The position numbers were made by a program, and so were the translations under genes. The notes below the pieces were generated by a model, which was given only the letters and a program-made list of their open reading frames with translations, ran no database searches and was not told the DNA's origin. Positions 13,691 through 43,602 of a DNA stretch of 64,000 nucleotides are shown piece after piece. The stretch's first letter is position 1; each line of letters opens with the position of its first letter. Source of the DNA: Sinohyriopsis cumingii (Eukaryota; Mollusca; Bivalvia; Unionida; Unionidae); assembly GCA_028554795.2 (NCBI GenBank), contig CM068839.1, positions 91,422,182-91,486,181 of the forward strand, read 5' to 3'.

Positions 13691-14715
13691 TAAAAGATAA
13701 TGAGCGCAATATCTAGTAAGTGGATCACAGTACCCAGGAAATATACCGTACGATAAGACAAACAATTGACAATAAATGGCAAAATTAATTTAGGAATATT
13801 TGGAATTTAATTCACAATACTGCAACTCTCAATTGAATTTTCACTTCGTATTCTAGGGGAACAATATTATTTGTTGTATATACTAAACTTATCAGTATGG
13901 CTTCTTTGTTTTACCTAGTTCAAGTACAAATTGTCATAGCAATGTATGTATGTATGTATGTATGTATGCATGCATGTATGCATCAGAGGAATGATTGGCT
14001 GACGAACTAATAGAGATAAGTACAGGGAAAAAGTTTAAACTTGACATAAGGTCATTTTGAAAGCATGGCAAGAAAATCTATTTTGGTTTCATTTTTTTCT
14101 TCATACCATACGTACGGTATATTTGTGATGCGTTTGGATAGTAATTTTCACTTCATCGTTATACAGCATTGGAACTAGGACACATATTAAACATAATACG
14201 AAACCATAAAGTGGAACACATTGTGATAAACACATTTATTGAATTTAAGACTCACAGTGGATCGAGTGCAGTAACTACTCTGACATATCGGAAGTAGAGC
14301 AAATTACCACATGCGCATGTCTTGAAGCACTTCTATCGACACTTAATTTTAACTGATATTAGGAAGTATTTTGAATCAATTCTATTTAATTACCTCTATA
14401 AACCAAAATTGTATCCGATTAATCAGGAATCTCAATCATATCCTATTTACTGTCTAAAATGTCGATTCATATTACAGCGAGAAAACACCTGTGTATATCG
14501 ATTGTTTCCAAATATGGTCATACAAACGTAGCGTGTGCAAGTCGTCAAGATAATTGCCTAGATACAAAGCTGGGGTGACTATAAAGGCCACCCCCGGCAA
14601 CTACCTGGAATAGTTGTCTCGTGGAAAATATCTCAAGAAGGTCACAACTGAAAAGAAAGAAACTAATCCGGTGCCATTTTCGAATAACAGGTACATCTGT
14701 CTGTCTGTCTGTCTC
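13691..14715. other. Intergenic up to the Polinton; (GTAT)n and (CTGT)n
   Basis: No gene is supported. (GTAT)n lies at 13942-13983 and a short CTGT run at 14697-14715 directly abuts the left end of the viral element. Confidence 0.6.
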
Positions 14716-14965
14716 AGCAGCAGGGAGGGCGAATCGGACAAGGTTTCCAGACCAAACAACCAGTTTCACCAATCAATTTACAACAGTATCCCGCATTTAC
14801 GGATACAAACCATTCCTCGTTCAGCATCGACAATAGAGATGTCTGCGCGTTAAAATAACGGGTTTCACGGGATAGTCGACGCGGTTGATACGTTATTGCG
14901 CTGCGGTTGCCCATGAAAACCATCTTGGATTTGGCCCTCCCTGCTGCTCCCAAATTGCTAACTAA
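14716..14965 (+). repeat. Left terminal inverted repeat of the Polinton
   Basis: 250 bp, the inverted copy of 30558-30807. By eye I count only two differences: the third base, and a GTCGACGCGG versus GTCGGCGCGG change. The repeat itself opens with AGCAGCAGGGAGGGC and carries the exact reverse complement GCCCTCCCTGCTGCT at 14934-14948. The last bases overlap the stop codon of the ATPase gene. Confidence 0.97.
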
Positions 14966-15633
14966 AAAGTGTATCAAGTCCGACACGATATCGCGTCCCA
15001 GGGTCGTGTAAATGTATCGTTACAAACCCGTGCTGGCGCTGCTGTGCACGACTAAAGAAGTTCCTAAATTTAACTAAATCCATGTCGCCGCTGCACCAGG
15101 TTTGGTGAATATTTCTCAGCGTGTGAACGTCAACACCGTTGAACACCGCAAGTAGATTGCAATTATCTCTGATCACTTTTGGAATTTGTGTATACCGTTG
15201 AGTCACATAAATCACATGTGTTTTTATGGCGACCGCGGGAAAATATTCTTGCCGGGTTTGTCTGCTTATCCAGCATAACATCGTCGTACACAACCAGATT
15301 ATTAATTGATCCATCGATGTCGTCAGTGCCGGGTGCATCATTGATATCAGTTATGAACTCAATTATGTCTTCGTCGGTTCCCACAGCCGTTTTTGCACTT
15401 TCGTTGAAATCTTTTAGCACTTGATAGCATCGCTGATCGTCCACCGACGGCGCTACCAAATATAGTTTGTCCCACTTCATCCACTTCGTTATCATATTCA
15501 AGAACAGCTGTGTTTTGCCTGACCCAGATGGCCCGATGATAATCATCCGTACGGAGTTGGGTAGCACACTGTTATGTTTAATTGGTTCTCGCTGCTTTGT
15601 CGCAGAAAAGTCGGCAACTTCATTTGTATACAA
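14958..15633 (-). pseudogene. Packaging ATPase (A32/FtsK-HerA type), frameshifted
   Basis: Genome-packaging ATPase of the virion. The N-terminal frame (15633-15163) has Walker A GPSGSGKT at residues 34-41 and a Walker B strand NNLVVYDDVML near residue 115, followed by FSRGRHKN, a conserved Polinton/A32 block. The continuation (VIYVTQRYTQIPKVIRDNCN) is in another frame that ends at 14958. The change occurs at an A-run (coding strand; 15221-15225) and corresponds to one base too many. It starts only 12 bp from the oppositely oriented DUF5679-PLA2 gene, so the two probably share a promoter. The family identity is firm. Whether the break is a mutation, an assembly error or recoding is unknown. 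Confidence 0.9.
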
Positions 15634-15645
15634 ATAAATAATATT

Positions 15646-16150
15646 ATGGATTTATATTGTGTGAAGTGCCGGGCACGAACCCCCACAAACGATCTAACAA
15701 CGATTACAACAAAAAATAACCGATCCGCGTTCACAGGAAGATGTGCTCGTTGTGGCACAAAAAAAAATTCAGATTCCAAAAACAAAGTTTAGCGGAGGCG
15801 ACATCACAGCCCAACTTGGAAAGTTCCCTGGCGCTCCCTGGGCAAAGTATCCCGGAGAAAAACATCTCCCCGGATACAACTACTGTGGCCCCGGAACCAG
15901 ACTTGACATAAGACTTGACAGCGACAATCAGCCTAAACCTGGTGAGTACCCCGTGAATGCTATCGATGCAGCTTGTCATGTTCACGACGTAGCTTATAAA
16001 AATCCTGATTTGCAGCAGCGACATATCGCAGACGTGAAATTAATTCACGCGCTAAACGCCATCAAAAATAAATCTCTCAAAGAATCACTCGCTAACTGGT
16101 TAATAAAATCCGCAATGAAATCTAAACTAGTATTAGACGCTAGTAATTAA
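15646..16150 (+). pseudogene. DUF5679-phospholipase A2 virion protein, frameshifted
   Basis: The start at 15646 opens a Cys4 mini-domain (MDLYCVKCRARTPTN, then GRCARCGTKK), a DUF5679-like zinc ribbon. At an A9 run (15759-15767) the frame must shift by +1 to continue into the second part, open from 15743 to 16150. That part has a parvovirus-VP1-type PLA2 site: calcium loop YNYCGPGTRLD and catalytic ACHVHDVAY. In parvoviruses this lipase opens the endosomal membrane, and fused DUF5679-PLA2 proteins recur in Polintons, so a virion entry role is inferred. Removing one A would align the two parts. The stop lies 2 bp before the integrase start, suggesting co-transcription. Confidence 0.8.
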
Positions 16151-16152
16151 TA

Positions 16153-17055
16153 ATGGAGGCAATTTATTATTCACCGATCGGATACTGGAGAGGTAACGCA
16201 GCAATTAATAAACTCGCTAACGCAGCAGGGGTTACGGCGGTTACTGCCAAAAATTGGCTATCAAAACAGGCAATATGGCAAATTTATTTACCGCCGCCTA
16301 GCCAAATCAGCTTTGCGCATTTCGATGTTAGTGTGCCCAACGAAGTCCATCAGGCCGACATAGTATTCTTGCCACATGATACAGTTCGGCGGAAAACGTA
16401 CAAATACGCGTTAACAGTAGTTGATGTTGCAAGCAGATACAAGGAAGCAACGCCGTTGACAACAAAGACAGCATCTGAAGTGGCTGATGCGTTTAAACGA
16501 ATTTATCAGCGAGGACCTCTACGATGGCCACATTTGCTACAAGTTGATCCTGGCAGGGAGTTTCAGGGTGCAGTATCATCGCTGATGAAGCAACATAACG
16601 TTACCATACGACGTGGACACACTGAAATTCATCGTGATCAAGCAATCGTTGAAAGATTTAATCGAACACTTGCCGAAAGATTATTTGGGTATCAATACGC
16701 GAAAGAATTTATTCAGGATGCGAGATCGCGCGAATGGGTTGCAAGATTACCAAGTGTGATAACTGCGCTAAATAACGAAATCACCCGATCCATCAACATG
16801 AAACCTGCCATCGCAATCACAAAAAAATACATACAGTTACAACGTAATAATATTTCAACGCAGCCAGTGCTGGGTAATGTTACAGTTAGATATTTATACG
16901 AACCGGGCGAACTTGAGGGTGGTAAACGAAGAGCGACTGATCCCATTTGGAGTGTTACCACACACAAGATATCCACCGTGACAAGATCCACTGGCAGACC
17001 AGCAATCTACAGATTAGATTCAACTGCTCCTCAACGCGGATTTACCCGTGAGTAG
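16153..17055 (+). CDS. Polinton integrase (rve family), C-terminal stop
   Basis: Inserts the element DNA into the host genome. An N-terminal helical DNA-binding region (residues 15-45) precedes the RNase H-fold core with the catalytic triad D69 (HQADIVFL), D132 (QVDPGREF) and E167 (QAIVERFNRT), and the D132-E167 spacing is retrovirus-like. The C-terminal region carries GGKRRATDPIW and ends RGFTRE, as expected for a Polinton integrase. A TAG at 17053-17055 is followed in frame by 16 codons (LQVIPDDTQLPPKSLR) to a TGA at 17106. These read like the normal tail, so this is probably a slightly truncated 300-aa copy. It converges on the replicase gene, whose stop is at 17116. Confidence 0.9.
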   Translation: MEAIYYSPIGYWRGNAAINKLANAAGVTAVTAKNWLSKQAIWQIYLPPPSQISFAHFDVSVPNEVHQADIVFLPHDTVRRKTYKYALTVVDVASRYKEATPLTTKTASEVADAFKRIYQRGPLRWPHLLQVDPGREFQGAVSSLMKQHNVTIRRGHTEIHRDQAIVERFNRTLAERLFGYQYAKEFIQDARSREWVARLPSVITALNNEITRSINMKPAIAITKKYIQLQRNNISTQPVLGNVTVRYLYEPGELEGGKRRATDPIWSVTTHKISTVTRSTGRPAIYRLDSTAPQRGFTRE

Positions 17056-17115
17056 CTTCAGGTGATTCCCGATGATACACAATTGCCGCCAAAATCACTG
17101 AGGTGATTTCGATCA

Positions 17116-19917
17116 CTAGGGTGATTCCGTTAGCGTAGCTGCACCTCTGCGTCTATTACACTCAAGACAGGTTAACATGATATTTTCGCGTGTGTGGCCA
17201 AGGGTGCTATTCTTTCTGTCTACCGTGAATTGTCTTGGGTCATTTTTCGGGTATTTCCACAGCATTATACAATTACAGCTCGCGCAGTGATTATTTTGCT
17301 GTTGTTTCAACGCAATAACGAATTCAGCATCAAGATCAAACTTCCGATTATTTTTTTTGTCGCTGTGTTTGTAATCGGTTAATTTTTTTCTTATCGTGTT
17401 AATCATCGCTGACTCGTCGACGACCGATGTCGTTGACGTATCTAACACAATTCTCCCCAACTGAGACATTCTTCGCACTCGCGACACTGCCAGGTAAACT
17501 AAATTGGACCACTCGATGCGATCATCAACGATCCAAACTTTTGTGTGTTCGATGGTTAATCCCTGCGCGGAGTGAATTGTCATAGCGTAACCTAGAATCC
17601 ACGGTGATTTATCAGCGGCAAGTGCAGCGTCGACAACATCAATATCGACCAGCACAATATCGTTTAACACTAACTGTTGCCGCTCAGATTTCCCAGGAAT
17701 GACAACATCGATATTTTGCAATCGTGTATCTGTTGGTCTATAACACAACGGTACCGGCATCATGGAAAACTTTTCTCTATGCAACTGAAACAGTCGCCGC
17801 AGAAGTGCGTCCCTGACCGCTTTTCTACTCGCCACCACAATATCATTTGGAGTCCACGTCGCCAGGAAGTCTTTCACGGATGTCCTAGGAATTATCTTAC
17901 GCATACAATAGCATTGAGTTTTATTATTCTGTAGCCGGATCAGCTTCTTAAACTTCTTCAGTTTGTTATCAATCGCTCTGATGTCGTCGTCGATCTCTTC
18001 GTAATAGTCAACAAAATTTTTTAGCCAGTCATGTGGAGATTCGCCTGTAAACGGCGGTGGCTGACCGTGATCGCCGCACATTATCACCGCGGTATTCTTC
18101 GTCAACAACCACTCAAGAAATCGCTTTAACGTATCCAGCGGTACCGTGGCTACTTCATCCCACATAACCACCTCGGGAACATACTTTGTTCCCATCCGCT
18201 CAGGAGTCCACGTGCCTCCGCTGTATTTAAAGAAACTGTGATACGTACATGCGCTAACGCCGCGCTGTTTCATTTCCCTGGCAAGTCTATGTGTGGGAGA
18301 TAGCACAATCATATCAGAGTTTCGAAACAACTCAATTGCTCTGGTTGTCTTTCCACAACCGCCCGGCCCGCTCAGATACACAGTTCTGTGTCTGGCAACA
18401 GGATCATGCACTGACGGTAACAACTTGCTGGAAGGTATTTCTGTCATCGCTGATTCAACATAACAGTCTTTGATCGTAACATCAGCTGATTCACAATATT
18501 CGTGTAACCGTTCCTGTTTCACACGCCAGTGGCCCCATTCCGCCGATTCTCCGACGACGCTCTTTACCAACGGCAGATATTCCCGTGATATATAAAATGA
18601 ATCCGTGGCAACTCTCACTGCGGTCCGGGAAAATCTGTTTACCATCGATAGCAGATTTACGGTGACATAAGCCAACATTGACGATCTCAAATGGGTATAT
18701 TGACGCGATTCCCCATCGAGGTAACTAACAATCGTGCCCAGTTTTTTCCCGTTAGATAATAACGCATCTTCGCGGTGACAAAACACATCTCTGGCGGCAG
18801 CATCAGCTATTATAAAATTCAGTTCGGCCTCATCAAGGATCAATCTGCTGTGATGTATTTTGTGATCAAATGCTGCGCCCTGGGTAAACTTCCCTATTAG
18901 TCTTCGTCCAAGGTCCTTCGCTTCGCTTTCCCTCATTGCCATGTATCTGTCAACCCGCTCTTGTGGCCACTGTTTCATTGTTTCCTCGGAGACGAAGGCA
19001 ACCGGTGTTGGTAACCAAATATCGGTTTGTTTCTGATAGCATATAATTGCTTCGCCAACAGTCAACAACGTTAGTATTCCGCTGTCTATCATGAATCGCA
19101 GCAACACAATAGGTGCCCACGCTTTCTCGGCGAGATGTTTTCCAATCCACGCATAATTGATCGGATGCAGTCCCGTATCAAATCGAAACGAGGTCACCTT
19201 GGCGAATCCAGTCAAATCAAAATCGGGCAGCGGTCCATCAATTGATACTCTGGTCATCAACGCGGTGGGATGGCCGAATCTGTTAAAATACTTACCGCAC
19301 TCGCCGTATCCAAGGAAACTTCCCGGGTAGCAAGCGGCCATGTCTACCGAGATCATGTCGCGGTAATCATACCGGGTATTCCACAGTCCGCCGTGACCGT
19401 ATTCGACACAGCTTAGTTTGGTATCCTCGAGGAATCTGTCGCTGGTTGGTTTCCACGAGTTTCTGTCTTTGGCTATGTTCGCTACAACTTTGGGAACAGT
19501 GAAACAGCGAGTCAGCAGCTGATCTATCGAGGAATCATCAAATGAGTATTTTTTCGCGAGTGTTCTCATTGTGTGTTGCAACGACTCAGTTCGGTATACT
19601 TCTCCGTTGGGCTTCACGAATTGATCGTATTCAGATTCTTCGTCGCTGTTAAATAACCACACCGACACGGGATCTGTTTTACTCGTTTCATAGATGTAAT
19701 CAAATATGTTACCGTCGTAGTGCCTCACAATACGATCTCGGGGAAATATCCTAACCGACTCTGTCCAGGCGTGACTGTTGTGATCAATAATTTCAATCGG
19801 GGATCCGCGACAGTTGTATTTTGACTTATACAGTTCTTCTCCGGTCAACGATTTTACCGTGATGGGAAATCTCAGCGACCTTTCTAGCGCAGCAACATCA
19901 GCTATATTGCCCCGCTG
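17116..19917 (-). CDS. Replicase: PolB-like polymerase + SF1 helicase + HNH
   Basis: One uninterrupted frame, 910 codons from an annotatable TTG at 19848 and open back to 19917, with no early ATG. Residue numbers are from 19848. Polymerase: motif A SVDMAACYPGSF (167-178), motif B-like GKFTQG (319-324), motif C-like VATDSFYI (413-420), which keeps one aspartate of DTDS. Helicase: Walker A GPGGCGKT (494-501), VVMWDEVA (560-567), GDHGQPPPF (592-600), TIHSAQGLTI (757-766) and VYLAVSRVRR (784-793), i.e. SF1 Pif1/RecD-like. C-terminal HNH: CASCNC, TVDRKNSTLGHTRENI, CLECNRRRG (855-902). The missing start, and conserved-looking sequence running up to the frame edge, suggest it was fused to the 232-aa ORF upstream (19902-20600). 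Usual Polinton PolB lacks a helicase. The polymerase assignment rests on motifs only; the helicase and HNH are firm. Confidence 0.85.
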   Translation of the reverse strand, partial: QRGNIADVAALERSLRFPITVKSLTGEELYKSKYNCRGSPIEIIDHNSHAWTESVRIFPRDRIVRHYDGNIFDYIYETSKTDPVSVWLFNSDEESEYDQFVKPNGEVYRTESLQHTMRTLAKKYSFDDSSIDQLLTRCFTVPKVVANIAKDRNSWKPTSDRFLEDTKLSCVEYGHGGLWNTRYDYRDMISVDMAACYPGSFLGYGECGKYFNRFGHPTALMTRVSIDGPLPDFDLTGFAKVTSFRFDTGLHPINYAWIGKHLAEKAWAPIVLLRFMIDSGILTLLTVGEAIICYQKQTDIWLPTPVAFVSEETMKQWPQERVDRYMAMRESEAKDLGRRLIGKFTQGAAFDHKIHHSRLILDEAELNFIIADAAARDVFCHREDALLSNGKKLGTIVSYLDGESRQYTHLRSSMLAYVTVNLLSMVNRFSRTAVRVATDSFYISREYLPLVKSVVGESAEWGHWRVKQERLHEYCESADVTIKDCYVESAMTEIPSSKLLPSVHDPVARHRTVYLSGPGGCGKTTRAIELFRNSDMIVLSPTHRLAREMKQRGVSACTYHSFFKYSGGTWTPERMGTKYVPEVVMWDEVATVPLDTLKRFLEWLLTKNTAVIMCGDHGQPPPFTGESPHDWLKNFVDYYEEIDDDIRAIDNKLKKFKKLIRLQNNKTQCYCMRKIIPRTSVKDFLATWTPNDIVVASRKAVRDALLRRLFQLHREKFSMMPVPLCYRPTDTRLQNIDVVIPGKSERQQLVLNDIVLVDIDVVDAALAADKSPWILGYAMTIHSAQGLTIEHTKVWIVDDRIEWSNLVYLAVSRVRRMSQLGRIVLDTSTTSVVDESAMINTIRKKLTDYKHSDKKNNRKFDLDAEFVIALKQQQNNHCASCNCIMLWKYPKNDPRQFTVDRKNSTLGHTRENIMLTCLECNRRRGAATLTESP

Positions 19918-20600
19918 TCATCGACGCTGCTGGCCCAATCCATTATCCTGGATTTTCTAGCCGGTGTTAAACCGTTGCCTCGCACGGCGTTGCTGAAATG
20001 TTCCATTACTCGCTCTGCTACACAATTTAACATCGTTGACATCCGCATCGGAGCGAGTTTACCAATTTCTGGTTTCTCCAGCGGATACAGTCCGTAAACG
20101 ACCGCAGTTACAGGGTACGCTCTGTTATAATATGGACTATCAATTCCAACAAGCATTCCCGGTCCGCTAGCGCGACTCAACAAAACAGTTTTACCGTTAG
20201 CAAGAACAGGATCGCGTTTATCACGGGTAATCCACGTATCATCGCCATCCTCGTTGACGACTCCGGTTATAAATTTTATCAACAGCGTGTAATTGGTATC
20301 GCCGAGATGCTTAATGATCCTACTGGCGCGGTCATCTGACATTGTACCGTCGATGACGTTGCCGACGGGATCACTATCGTCAAATAATTCCTCAAAGATA
20401 TCATCGACGGAGAGATTGTTGATAATTTTGTACGTCGAAAACACATAAGCCGCGCCATCGTCACGAAATTCCTGTTTCGCTTGTTTGATGATCCTGTTTA
20501 GCTCGGTCAGCGTATTTCGTTGCGGATCGCTGGTTAACTTGTCAAGATCAAATCGTTCCCTGGTTGACATCGTCGATGACAACCTATCAAATTTACTCAT
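19902..20600 (-). CDS. Probable N-terminal part of the replicase
   Basis: 232 aa starting MSKFDRLSS at 20600. An upstream extension exists, but it would overlap the divergent Zn-protein gene. No family motif is recognised. The mid-region NGKTVLLSRASGPGMLVGID and the tail EHFSNAVRGNG look like a folded, conserved domain. Its stop overlaps the open part of the replicase frame, which lies one base back. The junction sits on a G4 run (coding strand; 19910-19913), where one extra G would make a single protein of about 1165 aa. Alternatives are a coupled two-subunit replicase or ribosomal -1 frameshifting. A protein-priming role is possible but not shown. Confidence 0.6.
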   Translation of the reverse strand: MSKFDRLSSTMSTRERFDLDKLTSDPQRNTLTELNRIIKQAKQEFRDDGAAYVFSTYKIINNLSVDDIFEELFDDSDPVGNVIDGTMSDDRASRIIKHLGDTNYTLLIKFITGVVNEDGDDTWITRDKRDPVLANGKTVLLSRASGPGMLVGIDSPYYNRAYPVTAVVYGLYPLEKPEIGKLAPMRMSTMLNCVAERVMEHFSNAVRGNGLTPARKSRIMDWASSVDDSGAI

Positions 20601-20651
20601 TATGTAACAATAGGGCAAATTATGTTTAATTAAAAAAACATCATATATTAT

Positions 20652-21038
20652 ATGCCTAAAAACTACTGTGCGTGGAGGATCATGGGAACTAACCAGCGGT
20701 GCCAGCGAGCGTGCATAGGTGAGTACTGTTCCTCTCATAATCAAAATTTCAAGCGAGGATCCAACGGCGGAGTTATCTGCGCGATATGCGGCATTACGGT
20801 TCGCGGGAAAACAAAATTGTGTTTAGGATGTGGCGGTAAACGATTTCGTGAGCTCGCCAGGTATTATCTGCGCAAATACAATCGCGTGTACACGGAACAG
20901 GAATATATCAATGATCACCCGATACACTATTTAGATAAACAAATACCATCTAGTATAAGCAAATGGAGTTCAGAAGACACCCAATCTACGAAAACTACGA
21001 ATCCTCCACAGACGGAACGGTTAGACACTGCAGATTGA
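20652..21038 (+). CDS. Small Cys/His zinc-binding protein
   Basis: 128 aa. It has two Cys clusters: CAW...RCQRACIGEYCSSHN (residues 6-30), a C3H-like knuckle, and CAICGITVRGKTKLCLGCG (43-61), a zinc ribbon, followed by a basic helix (KRFRELARYYLRKY). The C-terminus is Ser/Thr-rich. I do not know the function; small Zn proteins of this sort recur in Polintons and could be transcription factors. It is divergent from the replicase gene with about 50 AT-rich bp between starts, and its 3' end overlaps the HNH endonuclease start by 76 bp. Confidence 0.75.
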   Translation: MPKNYCAWRIMGTNQRCQRACIGEYCSSHNQNFKRGSNGGVICAICGITVRGKTKLCLGCGGKRFRELARYYLRKYNRVYTEQEYINDHPIHYLDKQIPSSISKWSSEDTQSTKTTNPPQTERLDTAD

Positions 21039-21466
21039 AAAAACCACTCGAAGTTATTAATAATACTGGTTACAAATGTGTTACTGTCCGTAAATCCAGC
21101 GAAAGAAAAAATTATTATTATCTTCACAGGTTTGTTTTCGAGTGTTTTCACGGCCCGATCAAGCAGGGGCTTGTCGTCGATCACATTAACCGAGACAAAC
21201 TAGATAATCGCTTAGAAAATCTGAGAGCGGTTACTCAGAGCGAAAACTCTCGTAACTCAACAAGAGTTGCTCACAGGCCTCCTCGAAGGCCAGTCATTGC
21301 CGTAATGGACTCAGATGAGATAGAATTTCCCTCAATGAATTCCGCTGCTAAATATTTTGATATGGATTCAAGATCAATACATCGAAACATTAATCTTGTG
21401 ACAAAGACGGTCTACTCGAAGAAAAACGACAAACTCATAGCATTTTATGAACCTGATCAGCCTTAA
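20963..21466 (+). CDS. NUMOD4-HNH homing-type endonuclease
   Basis: 167 aa. The N-terminal NUMOD4-like block YENYESSTDGTVRHCRLKKP (residues 9-28) is followed by an HNH nuclease, HRFVFECFHG...VVDHINRDKLDNRLENLR (about 55-93) and then TQSENSRNS. The C-terminal part (FPSMNSAAKYFDMDSRSIHR) resembles a NUMOD1 DNA-binding helix pair. This is the architecture of phage and giant-virus homing endonucleases, and the catalytic DH-N-N pattern is intact. It begins inside the 3' end of the Zn-protein gene in another frame, which fits an invading selfish gene. No intron is visible around it, so it would be a free-standing (intronless) version. It is distinct from the HNH at the end of the replicase. Confidence 0.92.
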   Translation: MEFRRHPIYENYESSTDGTVRHCRLKKPLEVINNTGYKCVTVRKSSERKNYYYLHRFVFECFHGPIKQGLVVDHINRDKLDNRLENLRAVTQSENSRNSTRVAHRPPRRPVIAVMDSDEIEFPSMNSAAKYFDMDSRSIHRNINLVTKTVYSKKNDKLIAFYEPDQP

Positions 21467-21501
21467 CATTGTATTAAAGAAACAAATCCATATAAGGTAT
21501 A

Positions 21502-21855
21502 ATGGATGAGACAACAGTTGCAGCTCTGATCGATGAAATCAACGCGGTGAAAAAATATACCACATCAAGCGAGATCTTCAACGCTGACTGGCTGCAACAA
21601 CAGTACGATTCTATCTCGGAATCTCGCGCACAAGGCTACAAAACTCACCGACGTGAGTACAAAACTATAAAGATGCTCGATAACGAACTTAGATAAAATA
21701 TTATCTGCCAGCATCGAGATCAGATTAAAGTCTTCGTACCAATAGCCCGCACGTTGAAAAAAATCCTCGACGACATCGGAAAAATATTTGAGCAGGAGAA
21801 ACTGTCAAAGACGATCTCTGATAAGCTCGATAAATTACTCATCGACGACCAATAA
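21502..21855 (+). pseudogene. Small helical protein with in-frame TAA
   Basis: Starts MDETTVAALIDEINAVKKY and runs 64 codons to a TAA at 21694-21696. The same frame then stays open for 52 more codons to 21855 (VFVPIARTLKKILDDIGKI and a second amphipathic stretch). Both halves are rich in Lys/Asp/Leu heptads, and codon use does not change at the stop. I infer one ~117-aa protein split by a nonsense change; a genuine 64-aa protein is the alternative. Function unknown. Confidence 0.6.
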
Positions 21856-22025
21856 TTGCTGAAAACGATTTCCGGCAACAATTTTCAATAACAATTTTCG
21901 ATAACAATTACGATAAAAATTATTTTGCAGGTTTTTTGACAAAAAAATTTACAAGACACTTTTTTTTACGCCACCAAAACTCACGTAATAATTTTTACCG
22001 CAGTAATTTTTATCGCCGTTGTATA

Positions 22026-22271
22026 ATGAGGATTAATCTTGATCCCGAGCAAGTCAAATAAATTCAGCTTCAGCGGGGTGTTGTTCCGATCGCTGATAGC
22101 GCCAAACAGTTTCACGTCGGTTATAACAGGATTTACGAGATATGGCGGCAACAGGACCCGACGACGATAAGACCAAAAATTTCAACGAAACCAAACCAAA
22201 CAGAGATAGCGTCGTTGACACGCCAGCGAGATTCCGCCGTGGAACGCTGCAAACAAGCGCAGCTAAGCTAA
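22026..22271 (+). pseudogene. Possible small helix-turn-helix protein with early TAA
   Basis: The frame starts MRINLDPEQVK, meets TAA at codon 12 (22059-22061), then continues open to 22271. After the stop it reads like an HTH: GVVPIADSAKQFHVGYNRIY is a typical helix-turn-helix spacing. It overlaps the first 130 bp of the coiled-coil gene at 22142 in another frame. The overlap and the stop keep confidence low; it may be chance. Confidence 0.35.
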
Positions 22272-22681
22272 CTGCCGCTAACAACCAGCTCATGATCGAC
22301 TTGATGAACGCCCGCGAGGAATCAACTAGGTTATCGGCGACGATAGCCTCCATGGATGCGAAGTGTCTCGAACTAGGCGTGACTATGCACCTTACGAAGA
22401 CAATTCAGCAACTGAAAAAATATAGGGCCGCAGCTGAACAGGAGTTCACGGCGCAGCATCAGCGTAACAACGATCTCAACGAAAAAATTAACAAACTAAA
22501 ACAGCGCAACGATGAATTGAAACAACAGCGCAACGAATTAGCTGCGGCGGTGCCTAAAAAAACAAAACGACCAAAGAAGCCAAAATTTGCTGTTGAAACC
22601 ACACAGAGTGTTTCCATTGAATCGCCGCGCGAGGACGATTGGGAGCAACAACTACGTCAAATCGACGAAGTTTTTCGATGA
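22142..22681 (+). CDS. Coiled-coil protein with basic patch
   Basis: 179 aa. The N-terminal 45 residues are polar and disordered-looking. Residues 45-135 form a long coiled coil (LNEKINKLKQRNDELKQQRN). A basic patch PKKTKRPKKPK follows at about 138-149 (nuclear-localisation-like), then an acidic tail. Known function: none recognised. It is the last plus-strand gene of the left half and converges with the minus-strand block, with only 4 bp between stop codons (22681 and 22686), which supports both annotations. Confidence 0.7.
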   Translation: MAATGPDDDKTKNFNETKPNRDSVVDTPARFRRGTLQTSAAKLTAANNQLMIDLMNAREESTRLSATIASMDAKCLELGVTMHLTKTIQQLKKYRAAAEQEFTAQHQRNNDLNEKINKLKQRNDELKQQRNELAAAVPKKTKRPKKPKFAVETTQSVSIESPREDDWEQQLRQIDEVFR

Positions 22682-22685
22682 GATA

Positions 22686-22982
22686 TCAACAGCATATCAA
22701 CGTTGTCATGATTCGCTCAACAATGATAAGTGCGTCGACGCCGCCGCGTGTGAAATCGCGGCGCGAGTTGGTTTTGTGATAGTCCAAAAACTCACACGTG
22801 CTGCGGTAACGGTCAGCGAGGATTATCTCGAAAACACATTTTTTTTCCCACCCTCGTATCATCATGGCGTCCTCGCGGACTAATTTGAGACGGTCAAAGA
22901 TCGACTTGTATTTGCGCGTCGGTACGATGAGCGATACAGACTCGCTGCCGCGGTATCCATCGTAAAAGCAGCAAATTCTCAT
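22686..22982 (-). CDS. Small hypothetical protein
   Basis: 98 aa starting MRICCFYDGYRGSESVSLIV. No domain recognised. It fits the minus-strand structural block by strand, spacing and position as the last gene, but its translation has no low-complexity or family hallmark, so it could be fortuitous. Confidence 0.45.
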   Translation of the reverse strand: MRICCFYDGYRGSESVSLIVPTRKYKSIFDRLKLVREDAMMIRGWEKKCVFEIILADRYRSTCEFLDYHKTNSRRDFTRGGVDALIIVERIMTTLICC

Positions 22983-23095
22983 ACTATATTCGGGTAAATA
23001 TATTTGTTTATATGCGCTATCAGGGTATATTTTCCCCCGCGAGAACGTCCGTCAACTGCGACAACGACAAGCACGAGTGTGCATAATTCAAAATT

Positions 23096-23332
23096 TCAAT
23101 CATCGCTGAAGAACACGACGACGTCGCCGTGGCCGAAACGCGTTGCGTTTTGCAGCCGCGCTACATCATCGCGACACAGTAACATGCTATCGGTGCCACC
23201 ATCACGGATTCGTATTAGAGTGTCTTCGAGCCGGCGCGCGGTTTCATCATAATTTCGTGCAAATGCAGCTCTGATTGCGTCGGCAAGTTCTCGTCGGTCA
23301 AGTATGGTCACGCGGACGTGCTGATATGTCAT
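23096..23332 (-). CDS. Small hypothetical protein
   Basis: 78 aa starting MTYQHVRVTILDRRELADAI. Balanced amino-acid composition with alternating hydrophobic and charged helices. No family recognised. It lies between the acidic Ser/Asp protein and the preceding hypothetical gene, all on one strand with short gaps. Confidence 0.5.
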   Translation of the reverse strand: MTYQHVRVTILDRRELADAIRAAFARNYDETARRLEDTLIRIRDGGTDSMLLCRDDVARLQNATRFGHGDVVVFFSDD

Positions 23333-23349
23333 TGCTATGTTAACGTGGT

Positions 23350-23628
23350 TTATTTAATATAGTTGATCACGACGTGACTGTCCTTGATTGTTATCCCCGA
23401 AACGCTAGCGTTTTCCTTTCCCACCGGGCTATCATCGGAATCGCTGACGGAATCGCTTTGCGAGTCAGATTCAGAATCGCTCAGCGATTCGTCACTGGAG
23501 TCACTTTGTGTGGAAACACTTTGTGTGGAATCGCTCTGCGATTCAAATTCAGATTCGTAACAGGATTCGTAAATAGTTTCCCAATTTAAATCGCTGTCGG
23601 TGAAATCGCTATCGCTGCACGAGGACAT
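23350..23628 (-). CDS. Ser/Asp-repeat acidic protein
   Basis: 92 aa. Residues 1-70 consist largely of imperfect SDSxSDS and STQSDS repeats, extremely acidic and serine-rich (an evident casein-kinase substrate pattern), followed by a short ordered tail GITIKDSHVVINYIK. Function unknown; an acidic tail of this sort could bind basic core proteins. The AT-rich start context AACATATAATG resembles neighbouring genes. Confidence 0.6.
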   Translation of the reverse strand: MSSCSDSDFTDSDLNWETIYESCYESEFESQSDSTQSVSTQSDSSDESLSDSESDSQSDSVSDSDDSPVGKENASVSGITIKDSHVVINYIK

Positions 23629-23742
23629 TATATGTTACGCACTCGATATTGCTAATTGAAAATCTTAAGACGGAAATCCTCAGGATTTTACCAGCAGGTT
23701 TATACTTATCGTTTCCCCGCGCAGATCTAACAGTCGCTGTTG

Positions 23743-25125
23743 TTAGTCAGTGACTTTAAAATTTATTCTTGTCAGCGTCGGATTATGACACCGAAGAAAT
23801 ACTGGATTGATTGGCTCCTGCACAATCAAAAACCCAGGCGGTTGTGTGGGGGTAAACGAATAAAGTATAAAACCCTGCCGGGCCTGATTTGATTCACCAA
23901 CGTCCACGCTGTAACTGCCATCGATGACGTCACATACGAGATTAACCGCGACCACGTCGGTGATGTTCACAATTCCCGGAGAGATGTGTCTGCCATCACC
24001 GGATGTGGAGTTGTCGTGTTTCAAGATGTCAGGTTCCGGAAACGATCGCGCGTGCGCGGCAAGAGCATCTTCGAAGGATTGATCGATGAGATCAGTAAGG
24101 GATTTTTTCATCTCAGGTACGTTATATCCGGGAAATTTAAAATCGGGAATATTTTTTATCTCCATCTGATAGTGGTTTGCAAAACGCGCTCTCACCGCTC
24201 CTTCAGGAGCGGCTAGTATCATCTGGACAAGCCGGAGGTTCATGTACTCGGCATCATCTACGAGTTGATTTGCTATCTCAATGCGTTTGATGATTTTATC
24301 ACGTACGCGCTGTAGATCAGAAATATGTTCCTGAAAGAGTTGTTGCAGAAGTTTAAGTTGTGTTTGAAATAGTTGGTTAATTTCACTGAGATTCCATTCA
24401 ACTTCCCGTGTGTCCATGCTAGGGGGGATCTCTTGGAGTCTCTCCTCAAACGATAGGCCCTTTTTACTCCACCACCACACCCCTCCTAGACCACTACCAA
24501 AATCATCGGGGTGGGAAACTGTACCCTCATAATCCGGATTCTTCATAATGCTGATTAACTCGTAGTATGACGTTTGAAGGTCATGGTATGATTTCTTGTC
24601 GGAAAGATAATCCAATTTTACAGGTTCACGCGGACGTGGTATCGCTGGTGGTTTCTCCGCTGGCCACCCTAGCACGGTTCTGATTGAACTGTTGTAAATG
24701 TCAACGGCGTAACCTGGTGTTGAGATTTCGATTATAGTGGACAGCGTTGGCTCGTGTGCTGATATGCTAATCTTTGCTTCGCTACCAGTGACACGTTTTA
24801 TTTGATGCTGTATTTCCTTGTTGATTTCTTCTATCTGATAACTCCCAGTTGGTAACGTGATAACGTTCCAATCTGGTGTGTCGTCGTCGCGGTTTTTGTA
24901 CGAGAATACAAGCGAATTATTTGACAATTGTCCGTGAAATGATGTTGACCTAATGTTGGGCCAACTGTGATATACTCGCAACTGTGCCAGCGCGATTTCG
25001 GTAACTGGAATTGCAGTTGGAAAATTAATATTAAATTCGGGTTGCGTCGACGATATTGAGATCATTGATGTTCTTGACGGAGTTGTATTCGCGGCTATGT
25101 CGAGCAGCGCTTGTCGTTCCATCAT
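23743..25125 (-). CDS. Penton-like minor capsid protein with helical insertion
   Basis: 460 aa, intact. The N-terminal part (residues 20-165: SISSTQPEFNINFPTAIPV, LPTGSYQIEEINKEIQ, NSSIRTVLGWP) and the C-terminal part (about 375-460: SPGIVNITDVVAVNLVCDVI, GFILYSFTPTQPPGFLIVQE) match the two halves of the single jelly-roll penton-like protein widespread in invertebrate Polintons. Between them (about 170-370) is a long helical, coiled-coil-rich insertion (LFQTQLKLLQQLFQEHI) that I do not know from that family. The protein should sit at capsid vertices. The ATG at 25125 was chosen because it precedes the conserved strand by only about 20 residues. It overlaps the 3' end of the membrane-protein gene. 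Confidence 0.8.
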   Translation of the reverse strand: MMERQALLDIAANTTPSRTSMISISSTQPEFNINFPTAIPVTEIALAQLRVYHSWPNIRSTSFHGQLSNNSLVFSYKNRDDDTPDWNVITLPTGSYQIEEINKEIQHQIKRVTGSEAKISISAHEPTLSTIIEISTPGYAVDIYNSSIRTVLGWPAEKPPAIPRPREPVKLDYLSDKKSYHDLQTSYYELISIMKNPDYEGTVSHPDDFGSGLGGVWWWSKKGLSFEERLQEIPPSMDTREVEWNLSEINQLFQTQLKLLQQLFQEHISDLQRVRDKIIKRIEIANQLVDDAEYMNLRLVQMILAAPEGAVRARFANHYQMEIKNIPDFKFPGYNVPEMKKSLTDLIDQSFEDALAAHARSFPEPDILKHDNSTSGDGRHISPGIVNITDVVAVNLVCDVIDGSYSVDVGESNQARQGFILYSFTPTQPPGFLIVQEPINPVFLRCHNPTLTRINFKVTD

Positions 25126-25591
25126 TATTGTTGTAGTTGGTTTTTAAATGGAAACAATAGTCGCTGTAGCAGCTAGACATCAGCGCGAACTCGGAATCGG
25201 ATATGTTATTGTCGTCGACGCTGGATGATATCAACGAAGACAGCCTTGAGTAGGCACTGTTGGCCGCGTTGGACAATTGTTGATATTCGTGTAGTTTTGT
25301 CGTCGCGCACGAGGATATTTTTTTCGCGATGATATTAGCGACTCACGCAATCGTCGTTGACGCCGAGATAGTGATCGGAATTGTTACGGCGGCGGTTACC
25401 GGAGTCAACGCAGATAGTATCACGGCCGCGGACGCAACCACCGCGGATACCGAGTACACCGTTATGTCCAGCACAGTTACACGGCGTCGGTATTTTTTTA
25501 TTTTTGTCGCGCACATGTCCATGGTAGCTTTCAACGCTGACTGCCACTCACGTACCTGATTGTATCGATAACGTTGAGCATCTGGTGTCAT
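25031..25591 (-). pseudogene. Membrane-associated virion protein with in-frame TGA
   Basis: Starts MTPDAQRYRYNQVREWQSAL. A basic segment (KIKKYRRR) is followed by a long hydrophobic stretch (about residues 45-82: VYSVSAVVASAAVILSALTP, then TAAVTIPITI), which is membrane-spanning or membrane-inserting. A TGA at 25343-25345 interrupts it. The same frame then continues open to 25031 with SAYSRLSSLISSSVDDNNIS and SEFALMSSCYSDY, which fits the C-terminal 'ISDEEF' helical block of a small Polinton membrane protein found in many invertebrates. TGA could derive from CGA by CpG decay. Its tail overlaps the penton gene start. Confidence 0.65.
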
Positions 25592-25604
25592 CGACGCTAT
25601 TCAA

Positions 25605-26765
25605 TTACGCGGTAACCAATTGAGGCGTTGCAGCGACGAATTCCAAACACCACCAGTAAGATGTTGCTGTTAAACTATCGTCCTCGGCTTCAAGCATAAA
25701 TGTTTCCTCGGTTCCGCTGTTTAGTATCACAGTGCAAACCCCGGAATACTTATCAGTGGAGTGTCTCCAGGGATATGTTGTGAAGATTTCAAACTTAGCA
25801 GCGGAAAACACAGACAGCCTGTACACGCCGGTGGCTGTTGCTGTGTACTTGATGGTGTTATTTTGTCGTGACCATGTTGCAAACCCGGATGATACCGTGA
25901 ATACGATGTTAGTGATGTGCCCGGGAGTAACTGCAGCGGGGACTTTAATCAGACTGGTTTTGTTGACGATATCAGGAATTCCCGATACGATATCCTGCTG
26001 TGTTTGTTTGATCGTGCCAATGTTGGTTTTGATTTCAGAAAGCTTCATATCGACTACTGGAGGACTCCCAAAGAACTTATCCACGGTCTCATTGGCTCGT
26101 CGAGCGTTCCTCTGTACTCCTTTAAACGTGGTTATATGAAGATCGTACTCTGCACGCAGCGTATTTAGTTTACCGTTGACGATGTCTACGTATTGTTTGT
26201 TTGACGCATCCTGGTCGGATTCGGGATTCGCTAACGAGGTTATTTTGTTGCCGCTCATGTCAAGTCCGCCCGTCATTACGTCGCCGGATTTTGTTACTTT
26301 GTTGTGGACCAGCGGAATAACGGTGCTATACTGCGCGTCGACGTATTGTTTGTTTGCGGCATCTTCGGGACCTATTGGATCCGCTAACACAGTTATTTTG
26401 TTGTTGTTCATGCTGAGTTCGCCGGTCATTATGTCGCCGGATTTTGATACACGCGTCGCTGAGACTTTTCGTGCATCATCTCGCAGCATCGCAATTGATA
26501 TCGACGAATCTCTGATTCTGCCGCTGTCAGTGAATACAACGATGTTGTCCGTGACAGCTCCAATAACCCTGCGAATTATGTCATTCCACTTAATGTTACT
26601 GGTTCTTAGCTTACCGTGCCTGTCCTGAAAAATAACAACCTCATCTGGGTCTATCCCGGTTAGATTTAAAAGATTATCAACGTCATCTTTGGTCGCATAG
26701 TTTGATAAATCGACGTCGCCGTGGTGCTGTTTGGTTCTGCTTGATCTTCCGTAAATGTCAACCAT
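25605..26765 (-). CDS. Fibre protein with phage tail-fibre repeats
   Basis: 386 aa, intact. An N-terminal trimer-type motif DVDLSNYATKDDVDNLL (residues 17-33) is followed by two copies, 51 residues apart, of a tail-fibre unit: GDIMTGELSMNNNKIT...DAANKQYVD (110-143) and GDVMTGGLDMSGNKIT...DASNKQYVD (161-194). A helical/coiled segment (195-270) leads to a beta-rich C-terminal head (280-386; TATGVYRLSVFSAAKFEI) resembling C1q/TNF-type trimeric knobs. The MTGxLxM..NKI..LA.P....DAA.KQYVD unit is classic for bacteriophage fibres. It should mediate attachment. Its ATG overlaps the protease stop (TAATG, 26763-26767). Confidence 0.88.
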   Translation of the reverse strand: MVDIYGRSSRTKQHHGDVDLSNYATKDDVDNLLNLTGIDPDEVVIFQDRHGKLRTSNIKWNDIIRRVIGAVTDNIVVFTDSGRIRDSSISIAMLRDDARKVSATRVSKSGDIMTGELSMNNNKITVLADPIGPEDAANKQYVDAQYSTVIPLVHNKVTKSGDVMTGGLDMSGNKITSLANPESDQDASNKQYVDIVNGKLNTLRAEYDLHITTFKGVQRNARRANETVDKFFGSPPVVDMKLSEIKTNIGTIKQTQQDIVSGIPDIVNKTSLIKVPAAVTPGHITNIVFTVSSGFATWSRQNNTIKYTATATGVYRLSVFSAAKFEIFTTYPWRHSTDKYSGVCTVILNSGTEETFMLEAEDDSLTATSYWWCLEFVAATPQLVTA

Positions 26766-27212
26766 TATTTGTTACCGCCGTTTTCAAATGTGGTGTATTC
26801 GTGCACGACTTTGTGAGGAGGCATTGATGGGTTTTTTGATATCGCATCAAGGACGTTTAGCACCTGCTGCCCACAGATGGGCGGATCCGTCATCGTTTGG
26901 GTTGGCAGCGTTGACTGCCAGACGGGAATTGGAAACCCTTGGACGTACTTGAGGAACTCAACTGGCGGTGCTAACCCGTACGAATCGAAATAGACAATTC
27001 CACGTGGATCGATCGCGTAAGCAACCCAATGAGTCCCAGGGCCTTCTCGGTTATCGAGGTTGATAATTCCTGTCTCAACGCGTTTTGGTCGCGCCGGTAA
27101 CTCATCTCGCATAAATACGCCACGGAATTTTTTTTATGCGCAGTTGCTTGACAGCGTCAAGTAAATCAAAGTTGGACGCTGGAAGCGTTTTTAAAACCGC
27201 TTTAGGTACCAT
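26765..27212 (-). pseudogene. Adenain-like cysteine protease, frame-disrupted N-terminus
   Basis: Virion maturation protease of the adenain/Ulp1 fold. The part in frame from ATG 27112 (115 aa) has His in GPGTHWVAYAID, Asp in VYFDSYG and Cys in PPICGQQVL, the expected H-D-C order. The conserved family start lies further up: FRGVFMRDELP straddles the 27112 start, and the preceding residues (from about 27212, MVPKAVLKTLP) are in the frame of the minor capsid gene. The switch falls at an A8 run (coding strand; 27128-27135); seven A would give one frame. Without that, initiation at 27112 would lose the N-terminal block. Confidence 0.8.
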
Positions 27213-27806
27213 GACGCGGAAGTTCCTGGGAGTCTGAGACCGCGGCCTGTTTTTTTTATAACCTGATCCTGTTTGTAGGTGTCTTGTTGCTGCTGCTATA
27301 GATGGTGCTAGATTTGTCATAGCTGCCATAACTGGGTTAGCAGGAGTTCTGCGTTGAAGTGCTCTAGAAGCAATTAATGGCGCTATTGCTAGCAATGGTG
27401 CTATTCGTGATATATTTCCACCTCGTTTGTTATATCCTTGACCAAGTGCCTTTTTGAGACCGATTCCTGTTGCGGTTCCAACTGCTCCTAACGCTGCGGC
27501 TTTTGCTGCGGCGGCTAACGCTGACGCTGCTGCTGCGGCAATTATTGGAATAAGTGGAAATATTCCACCGGATTTAATCATGTCCCGGACAGCTGTGGCA
27601 GTAAAATCAAGTCTGATTCCGGTTCCTGATGCTCTTGCGCGATTGATTTGATTAAGCTGTGCTTGAGTGACCGATAACTTATTTTGACCACCACTAAGTT
27701 GTGCGTGTTTAAGTGTTATTGATGCTCCAGACGCTGATGCGTTTTTGGATTTTAGTTTGTTGATCTGACCAGGAGTCAACGCGACGTTGGCGTGATGATA
27801 CGACAT
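27102..27806 (-). CDS. Minor capsid/core protein (pVI-like), runs into protease
   Basis: The start at 27806 (MSYHHANVALTPGQINKLK) was chosen over an upstream Met because it follows the MCP stop by 31 bp and has the AAATAAAATG context shared by other virion genes. Residues 1-75 contain Gln/Leu/Asn-rich beta-like repeats (LTPGQINKLK, VTQAQLNQINRA). Then comes a hydrophobic Ala-rich helix (IAAAAASALAAAAKAAALG) and a Gly/Arg-rich tail. This fits the Polinton minor virion protein with a membrane-active helix. A second A8 run at about 27251-27258 may also be a frame break, since the alternative frame after it gives RGLRLPG and stops just past the protease ATG. As written, the frame reads through into protease sequence and stops at 27102. 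Confidence 0.7.
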   Translation of the reverse strand: MSYHHANVALTPGQINKLKSKNASASGASITLKHAQLSGGQNKLSVTQAQLNQINRARASGTGIRLDFTATAVRDMIKSGGIFPLIPIIAAAAASALAAAAKAAALGAVGTATGIGLKKALGQGYNKRGGNISRIAPLLAIAPLIASRALQRRTPANPVMAAMTNLAPSIAAATRHLQTGSGYKKNRPRSQTPRNFRVMVPKAVLKTLPASNFDLLDAVKQLRIKKIPWRIYAR

Positions 27807-27837
27807 TTTATTTAACAGGGGTTGGTCTAATTGAAAT

Positions 27838-29223
27838 TTACAGGTTTTCCACTGGTGCATCAATGACTCGCATTCTGCCGCCAGTACCTTCAAGCAACAT
27901 TGCTTTATCGGAAAGTATAACCGCGACGGCTCTGTAATTGGCTATAGCTCCTGCGTCTCTATTCACGGTAGCCCTGAAGTGAATATCAACGACAGACTGT
28001 CTGGCTAAATCGAGATGCTCCAGCGAAAAGTAATAGATTGGATACTGAGATATAAAATCCAACTGTGATATTTGCAAACCAGTGTCGATATTTAGATCAC
28101 GCGCCAGATACTTTGTCAACCGATGATATGCGCGCGCAACGTGGTTGTTAGTGAAATTTAAGTGTATGTCTTCAGATGGTTCTTGATGACCATTTATTCT
28201 CAAGGAAACGTCGGTGACACCAAGTTGATCAAATATCATATGCGAACGTGTTTGTGAGTTTAATCGCGCAATATTCTGAAAAGCAATGAAAATATGCCGC
28301 GGCGCTGAAACCCCCTGCTGTGTTGCTATATTCCATGTAAACAAACCATTGACGTTACTTTGAATACTATCTGTGGTTGTTGTAAGCCACTGTATCAACG
28401 TTTTACCGCCCTGATCCATGAAGGAAAGCAGTCGCTGTTCTTGGGCAAGTGCAGGGGACAGCACTGGCATCCACAGTGACAGTTTTGTTATTTCTACTCT
28501 ACCATCATCACCAGCTTGTCGCCATATCGCATCATTGTCGTCGCCTTTTCTAACAAGCACGATTGTATGCTTTGCTCCGAAAATTACCTTTCTGACCCCC
28601 CGGCAAAATCCAAAGATGTGAGACAGCGGGATTGCACACGAAAAATTTCAGCTATTACCTGTTAGCGCCAATTTACGCGTCATAAACCCCAGGTTATATC
28701 CTGAATTAGTGTTAATAATCATATCTTCGACTGCAGCATCACCAGGAGGAGCATCACGATTTTTTGGTCGTCTAACAATAAACTGATCACTGTCGGCGCT
28801 ATCAAAAGTGTCCTTGGCAAACATCATTGTTGGACCGATTGATCTTGTGTAATCGTCGGAATATCTTGCTAAACCAATTATTGTTGTGGCAACGTCGACA
28901 TCATTCTGAATCGCTTCGATATTTTTTCCATCAATCATGTAAATAGCGCTACTAAACAGCACCATAATTCCGTTGTTGACAAAACCGACTTTAACGGCGC
29001 CCCCGTAGTCTGTGCCGTCGGTTTTTATAATTTTTCCTTCTACCTCGATAAATGTTTCAGCGGGCAGAAAATATCTGCTATTATCCTGAACCTGAAGTTC
29101 AATTCGTCTTCGTCCGTTTGGTTCTCGTGCGTCATACGAATAATACTGTTAATCACGTACCGACTCGTTCTTGGAGACTGGCGCATCTACGTCGAATGCG
29201 GTGTCAGACTCATATGTGTACAT
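27838..29223 (-). pseudogene. Major capsid protein (double jelly-roll), two nonsense codons
   Basis: Reading from ATG 29223 the frame is about 461 codons long and is interrupted only by TAA at 29149-29151 (codon 25) and TGA at 28648-28650. No frameshift is needed, because all three pieces share one frame. Hallmarks: YFLPAETFIEVEGKI and YMIDGKNIEAI in the first jelly roll; IPLSHIFGF just after the TGA; DDNDAIWR and LSLWMPVLSPA; PRHIFIAFQN; a C-terminal ISQYPIYYFSLEHLDL. These match the Polinton/adintovirus MCP, related to worm F54H12.2-type proteins. The gap pieces are as conserved-looking as the rest, so the stops look recent. The TGA is compatible with decay of a CGA codon. This copy cannot make full-length capsid without readthrough. 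Confidence 0.92.
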
Positions 29224-29236
29224 TTTATTGTAAAAG

Positions 29237-29674
29237 TTATCGTCTAAAACGAAGGCCGCTTTCCGCGACCAAACTCGTGTTTATTTGCTCCGAGATTTCG
29301 TTGACTAGCGCGGCCAGCCTTTGATTTGCGGCCTCGTTTATTACTTTACTGACACTCGCTGGCATATCTGCGGTGGCTGGTAATGCTACCTTTGGAGGTT
29401 TTTTTCTGCGCACCAATCGTGCTAGTTTGTCCTTGACCCACGAGACTGCTTTGACGGCGGCGCTGCCAACAGCGCTAAGAGCACTATCTTTAACAGCATC
29501 AAAAGCTTTTGCTCCTAATTGTTTCACGAGCGGAATTGCTTTAGGTGCCGCTCCAGCAAAGAGTTTTGTGACAACATCACCAAAACCGTCTCCGTAAGTC
29601 ATCCTGTATACGGGTAGTCGTGAATTTACCACGTGGACCATGACTGGTCTGCGCTCGGAATCGTGTACTAACAT
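29237..29674 (-). CDS. Amphipathic core protein (pX/pVI-like)
   Basis: 145 aa starting MLVHDSERRPVM. RMTYGDGFGDVVTKLFAG (residues 24-41) opens a long amphipathic Ala/Lys/Val helix (AFDAVKDSALSAVGSAAVKA) ending in a basic patch LVRRKKPP, with a second helical region to the end. Proteins of this size and pattern lie just upstream of MCP in many Polintons and resemble adenovirus membrane-lytic or core proteins (inference). Start context TAAATAAAATG. The stop lies 14 bp from the MCP start. Confidence 0.72.
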   Translation of the reverse strand: MLVHDSERRPVMVHVVNSRLPVYRMTYGDGFGDVVTKLFAGAAPKAIPLVKQLGAKAFDAVKDSALSAVGSAAVKAVSWVKDKLARLVRRKKPPKVALPATADMPASVSKVINEAANQRLAALVNEISEQINTSLVAESGLRFRR

Positions 29675-29694
29675 TTTATTTATTTGCTATTTCT

Positions 29695-30531: not shown

Positions 30532-30557
30532 TATTGTTAACTTAAATTTTTAATTCC

Positions 30558-30807
30558 TTAGTTAGCAATTTGGGAGCAGCAGGGAGGGCCAAATCCAAGA
30601 TGGTTTTCATGGGCAACCGCAGCGCAATAACGTATCAACCGCGCCGACTATCCCGTGAAACCCGTTATTTTAACGCGCAGACATCTCTATTGTCGATGCT
30701 GAACGAGGAATGGTTTGTATCCGTAAATGCGGGATACTGTTGTAAATTGATTGGTGAAACTGGTTGTTTGGTCTGGAAACCTTGTCCGATTCGCCCTCCC
30801 TGCTACT
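30558..30807 (-). repeat. Right terminal inverted repeat of the Polinton
   Basis: Inverted copy of 14716-14965. It carries the same internal 15-bp mirror of its own outer end. Apparent open frames across it are the same as those in the left TIR and are not genes. Confidence 0.97.
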
Positions 30808-30880
30808 GTCTCTCTCTCTCTCTCTCACACACACACATACAAACACACACACAAACACACACACACACACGCACACACAT
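30808..30880. repeat. (CT)n-(CA)n tract at the right insertion edge
   Basis: TCTC repeats followed by CACA repeats, starting immediately after the element end. The left flank is (CTGT)n, so the element inserted into a polypyrimidine microsatellite or such a tract grew at the ends. Confidence 0.9.
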
Positions 30881-43453: not shown

Positions 43454-43602
43454 GTGGGTAGTCCTGCTTTGATGCTTTGATGTTAAATTTACGCAGGTAC
43501 ATACAGAATATTATTATGAATATCATTTCCATGTTTTATGCCTGTTGACAGCTCAGAGGCGAAATCTGATTTGATATTTAAACACATTTTACTTTGATAT
43601 TT

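Follow-up and report, generated by a model that had tools for sequence, protein, structure and literature searches.

A broken, probably pPolB-S1H-type replicase gene in an endogenous Polinton-type virus of the mussel Sinohyriopsis cumingii

A stretch of 64,000 nucleotides from the mussel Sinohyriopsis cumingii (GenBank assembly GCA_028554795.2, contig CM068839.1, positions 91,422,182 to 91,486,181; hereafter the window) carries a multidomain replicase gene on its reverse strand, inside a Polinton-type element at 14716–30807. With a probability of roughly 0.8, what is seen here is the damaged copy of a replicase gene made in one piece, of the pPolB-S1H kind (protein-primed family-B polymerase joined to a superfamily 1 (SF1) helicase; also 'Tlr1-like helicase'), carried by a Polinton-type virus endogenous to an animal and working as proposed below. 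The mussel family adds a new animal (mollusc) branch to an already known kind of replicase. Described in the literature cited here from protists and giant-virus-associated elements, pPolB-S1H replicases are now placed, in many copies, in the genome of an animal. Because many copies in all states of decay lie in one host, selection can be measured domain by domain, which bears on whether such palms are working polymerases. Replicases of this kind are easily missed, since sequence profiles detect the helicase and not the polymerase. The initial annotation had placed palm, SF1 helicase and HNH nuclease together in a single protein of a Polinton-type element, and this part stands. Its claim of an undescribed system does not, as the same architecture, in some members with an HNH at the C terminus, is in print for a named group, the Tlr1-like helicases or pPolB-S1H (PMC11071308).

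The C-terminal 910 codons of the gene are read in a single frame at 17116–19848 (-), recognized from the frame list, Pfam, relatives and genome matches and spanning the end of a vOTU-like region, the palm, the SF1 helicase and the HNH domain. All motifs named in the initial annotation were found in it. Residues 1–480 (18409–19848) contain the end of the vOTU-like region (HNSHAW, residues 23–28) and a polymerase core of the protein-primed family-B type, with motif A SVDMAACYP (residues 167–175; 19324–19350), motif B IGKFTQG (318–324; 18877–18897) and motif C VATDS (413–417; 18598–18612). A linker and the helicase occupy residues 481–815 (17404–18408), with the Walker A motif GPGGCGKT (494–501; 18346–18369) followed by WDE, GDHGQ, HSAQG and VSRVR. 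The HNH domain (residues 826–908; 17125–17373) has the signature CASC...DRKNS...CLEC. The frame is, however, incomplete: its listed start codon is TTG, the first in-frame methionine occurs only at motif A, and it makes up the last three quarters of the gene, intact relatives having approximately 266 more residues upstream in one protein. The N-terminal part, with the vOTU-type motif LNCVAER, was located in another frame at 19902–20744 (-) by frame list, alignment and locus comparison, and it adjoins the replicase at 26/26 loci inspected, one of which (L002) is the window copy itself. The two parts form a single protein in P0001 (1176 aa, 68% identity), the closest relative from outside the host genome; the window copy, split over two frames, is thus a broken version of a gene that runs to almost 1,200 codons, interrupted between the two frames.

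For the palm, Pfam gave no polymerase family (39 members; 25 of 28 matched families listed). By structure comparison of residues 1–480 the palm was evident, with a phi29-like fold and the mavirus polymerase as a structural match (E 3.6e-8), so that the PolB-like core proposed earlier was confirmed by structure and not by profiles. The aspartates of motifs A and C are invariant in 39 alignment rows. Motif C reads ATD in the window, the first aspartate being missing; VATDS is found in 18/20 genomic copies, one of the others having VGTDS and one being interrupted by a stop. Between the vOTU histidine and motif A, no exonuclease carboxylate set was evident in 14 rows: E388 is the sole invariant acidic column, and three further columns are acidic in 11/14. 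The vOTU-type NC and HxxH residues are invariant in 15/15 rows of alignment A1. The SF1 helicase, in the same protein as the palm, was detected by Pfam (AAA_19 1.5e-11, AAA_30 2.6e-10) and resembles Pif1, RecD2 and Dda in profile and structure matches. These helicases move 5' to 3'. The C-terminal HNH domain matched a PHROG endonuclease VII family (2.0e-10) and several HNH families; the Pfam HNH match by itself (0.028) was under its cut-off.

In the protein database 38 relatives were found. Five are named, from Sinanodonta woodiana, Elysia crispata (two), a Thiodiazotropha metagenome-assembled genome (MAG) and a Racocetra fragment; the query's own copy is not among the named ones. The Thiodiazotropha protein (P0030) is probably host DNA. 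Among 26 hits for the capsid protein of the element, the two named taxa are Sinanodonta and Potamilus streckersoni. A second, environmental palm-helicase family (P0038–P0044) is homologous to the replicase over 1,014 aligned columns (E 1.1e-148, 19% identity) and separates with a support of 100 in a quickly built tree flagged for long branches. Its motif C is DTD in 4/7 members, SVD in one and SAD in one (script), and AVD in the seventh (alignment A2), the first aspartate thus being lost in 3/7. In scans of viral contigs none of the pattern-matching stretches was confirmed (replicase 0/2, alignment A1 0/6, capsid piece 0/4, alignment A2 0/25). A scan of GTDB contigs confirmed 1/27 stretches; it lies on a contig of 3.2 kb from an archaeal MAG (L001, JAADDH010000070.1), too short for context. 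This contig, binned as a Diapherotrites archaeon, is probably misbinned eukaryotic or viral DNA, and P0030 looks a similar case.

The host genome comprises 2.9 Gb in 1,138 contigs, with the window at 91 Mb of a 100-Mb contig. At least 50 scored matches to the replicase, including the window copy, were obtained on many contigs, and at least 131 to the integrase. With 38 database relatives and 50 scored genome matches, the replicase frame is not a chance reading frame. Within the match, 19 of the 50 are stop-free, and in 10 of these 19 the open frame reaches 1,100 codons or more. Twenty replicase loci (L002–L021, one being the window copy) were compared. The integrase, the N-terminal part of the replicase and an HNH_3 gene were present in 20/20 and a phospholipase A2 (PLA2) gene in 19/20; the remaining locus (L009) has the last part of the integrase only and no PLA2 within its stretch. 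Six of six further 4-kb stretches beside integrases without a listed replicase also contained the replicase, mostly in broken frames. Capsid sequence was found at the expected place in 5/5 copies tried, the capsid gene being in more than one piece in several.

Selection was estimated by pairwise Nei-Gojobori comparison of the stop-free copies, 13 out of 20 with the window copy included; pairs with dS (synonymous divergence) under 0.02 or too small an overlap were dropped. Palm and helicase, with 78 pairs each, had a median dN/dS (nonsynonymous over synonymous divergence) of 0.140 and 0.097, respectively, and the HNH domain, with 64 pairs, one of 0.168, at a median dS of 0.65–0.73, the choice of stop-free copies pushing these ratios downward, i.e. 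towards constraint.

Apart from this bias, several points weigh against assignment to pPolB-S1H. No named Tlr1, Polinton-like virus (PLV) or transpoviron protein was among the matches from the protein-database and viral-contig searches. The assignment rests on the features described in print and on homology with the environmental family from end to end. The model of the full-length replicase was weak (pLDDT 67.7, pTM 0.37), and its comparison with VIA gave only helicase-type entries among the best 50 rows; this result is uninformative on the polymerase because one domain, the helicase, filled the match list. The vOTU-like and terminal-protein regions are putative. Finally, the structural alignment with phi29 polymerase begins at phi29 residues 51–53, which we take to lie inside the phi29 exonuclease domain, and part of an exonuclease fold may persist in the mussel palm, though the family is described as being without exonuclease. 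A remnant exonuclease fold is reported for the mavirus polymerase (PMC11071308).

Among the alternatives, the one with the best prospects concerns the HNH domain, which could be a parasitic homing nuclease or intein remnant carried by the replicase with no role in replication. We give this a substantial chance, somewhat short of even. An intein invasion has been suggested for such domains (PMC11071308), and a separate HNH_3 endonuclease gene with a weak NUMOD4 match stands beside the replicase (20963–21466 (+), Pfam HNH_3 1.7e-19). The seven environmental proteins P0038–P0044 end ahead of the HNH region, and one relative (P0027), which runs a shorter way past motif VI, shows no more than a degenerate version of the domain in the alignment. 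Against this, the domain is C-terminal and was found by regular expression in 20/20 relatives extending more than 110 residues beyond motif VI, it is under purifying selection (median given above), and its best match is to an endonuclease VII family. The end or junction nicking suggested in the initial annotation is a putative function of the domain.

An independent fusion specific to animals, in which a helicase of the Pif1 type was joined, apart from Tlr1 and the PLVs, to a canonical Polinton polymerase that lost its exonuclease, is considered unlikely. With PLA2, an adenain-like protease and an rve integrase, the chassis resembles that of animal Polintons and adintoviruses; most of the named relatives come from animals, and the phi29 alignment extends into the presumed exonuclease region; moreover, a second, independent fusion of opposite order has been published for Oxyrrhis (PMC12721341). 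However, domain order, motif C change and the C-terminal HNH option are the same as in the described family (PMC11071308), and the homology with P0038–P0044 runs over the 1,014 columns mentioned.

Still less credit is given to a catalytically dead palm, serving as a mere structural or DNA-binding platform for the helicase while the genome is copied by another polymerase. According to a later account this was the first reading of the fusion, in 2016 (PMC11071308), and the title of the 2016 paper by Krupovic, Yutin and Koonin names an inactivated polymerase; the ATD of motif C in the window, without the first aspartate, agrees with it. Yet the palm is constrained nearly as tightly as the helicase at a dS of about 0.7, which argues against a dead palm, and the invariant aspartates of motifs A and C as well as DTD in four of the seven environmental proteins speak against it too. 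PMC11071308 names active polymerases without the same aspartate and predicts activity. Contamination of the animal assembly with protist or giant-virus DNA, suggested by the published hosts of such replicases (protists and giant-virus-associated elements; PMC11071308, PMC12721341, PMC3671162, PMC4642659), was considered and rejected as very unlikely on the position of the window at 91 Mb of a 100-Mb contig in a 2.9-Gb genome, the spread of the 50 matches over many contigs, a protein with five fibronectin type III stretches 11 kb away, exact target duplications in three copies, and the molluscan relatives (replicase in Sinanodonta and Elysia, capsid also in Potamilus).

The pPolB-S1H reading comes with the following proposed mode of action. 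By analogy with the family, the N-terminal region would act as terminal protein, giving the priming hydroxyl at the ends of a linear genome, and the vOTU-like region, whose cysteine and histidine are invariant in the relatives, would free the terminal protein by cutting. The palm is predicted from its phi29-like fold, its motifs and purifying selection to copy the strand by displacement. The fused SF1 helicase would unwind the DNA in front of the polymerase, probably by travelling 5' to 3' along the displaced strand like Pif1, RecD2 and Dda. It may thereby compensate for the missing exonuclease, as likewise proposed in PMC11071308. More speculatively, the HNH domain might cut DNA at some stage, with branched intermediates or the fold-back ends as conceivable substrates. 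The integrase would then insert the product, leaving the 5-bp target duplication observed as its footprint. A wider view is held as tentative and rather doubtful: molluscs would have their own large and recently mobile Tlr1-type virus lineage, in which one polypeptide supplies primer, protease, polymerase and helicase together with an HNH for cutting junctions or fold-back ends, and P0038–P0044 would record the step from the ordinary to the single-aspartate active site.

The Polinton-type chassis reported around the replicase was recovered, with terminal inverted repeats, a short target duplication, an rve integrase, a double-jelly-roll capsid and an A32-type ATPase. The element measures 16,092 bp, its boundary being taken from other copies. 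The inverted arms (14715–14965 and 30558–30808) are identical at 249/251 positions and define a left (14716–14965 (+)) and a right terminal inverted repeat (30558–30807 (-)). The target-site duplication GTCTC is present at 14711–14715, within a simple-repeat flank, and at 30808–30812. Exact 5-bp duplications were also seen in the two other copies with both ends read (TGCTG and ACCCT); the right end of a fourth copy (C5) was not found within the 2-kb stretch examined. An inverted repeat of 15 bp (14716–14730 / 14934–14948; single-strand DNA fold z -2.70) in turn borders the left terminal repeat, and since the right end matches, each end could fold back. In five other copies the 15-bp stem was exact in three, 10 bp long in one and not found in one.

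From left to right, the element encodes the N-terminal frame of an A32-like packaging ATPase (15163–15633 (-), Pfam Pox_A32 5.3e-8), which seems to continue in the frame 14958–15341 (-), so that the gene appears split in the window copy; a PLA2-like protein (15743–16150 (+), Phospholip_A2_4 1.1e-13); and the integrase (16153–17055 (+), rve 3.7e-9). The PLA2-like gene, of a type named for parvovirus capsid proteins, adjoins the integrase as in some Polintons. Beyond the replicase and the HNH_3 gene lie a 460-aa protein with a weak DUF5743 match (23743–25125 (-); frame list, Pfam), a protein with phage-tail-fibre-like repeats (25605–26765 (-), Phage_T7_tail 1.5e-6, PHROG tail fiber 7.3e-16), an adenain-like protease under the Pfam cut-off (26765–27112 (-), Peptidase_C5 0.0015) and the double-jelly-roll major capsid protein. 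The tail-fibre-like protein, in an animal Polinton-type element, is perhaps a receptor-binding fibre. The capsid gene is split into a C-terminal frame (27838–28560 (-), DJR-like_dom 1.9e-9) and an N-terminal frame (28648–28965 (-); frame list, locus comparison); a longer frame in another copy gave DJR-like_dom 7.5e-18. No minor capsid protein was identified among the genes of the element. Outside it, an open frame at 41902–43461 (+) has five fibronectin type III stretches from a 297-bp tandem repeat and is probably part of a host gene.

Compared with known systems, the mussel replicase is closest to pPolB-S1H. The palm-SF1 helicase fusion is documented in Tlr1, PLVs and transpovirons (PMC11071308, crediting Krupovic, Yutin and Koonin 2016); no earlier report of it in a mollusc or other animal was found in the titles and abstracts searched, with subscription papers mostly outside this scope. 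The described proteins have the order terminal protein, vOTU, palm and S1H, no exonuclease, a motif C without the first aspartate, a predicted polymerase activity, and a C-terminal GIY-YIG or HNH in different PLVs (PMC11071308). The order of palm and SF1 helicase behind a putative terminal-protein and vOTU-like region, motif C, the lack of exonuclease carboxylates and a C-terminal nuclease in some members are common to both; the mussel family differs in its animal host with at least 50 copies in one genome, in the HNH of all 20 long-enough relatives and in a possible remnant of the exonuclease fold. Tlr1 of Tetrahymena, by description, shares the rve integrase, double-jelly-roll capsid, ATPase and palm-helicase-nuclease fusion (PMC11071308, PMC4642659, PMC12721341), whereas its nuclease is GIY-YIG and its host a ciliate, and the mussel element has PLA2 and an adenain-like protease. 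Canonical Polintons and adintoviruses share terminal inverted repeats, integrase, PLA2, capsid type and a protein-primed family-B core; their polymerase, however, has the order terminal protein, vOTU, exonuclease and palm with no helicase (PMC11071308), and exonuclease motifs in a helicase-free protein are not what the mussel replicase presents. The mavirus polymerase resembles the mussel palm in structure, but its helicase is of superfamily 3 and comes from a separate gene (PMC11071308). The SF1-pPolB of OmPLV from Oxyrrhis marina likewise unites SF1 helicase and polymerase in one protein, but there the helicase is N-terminal, the full exonuclease is kept, and no terminal protein or vOTU was found (PMC12721341).

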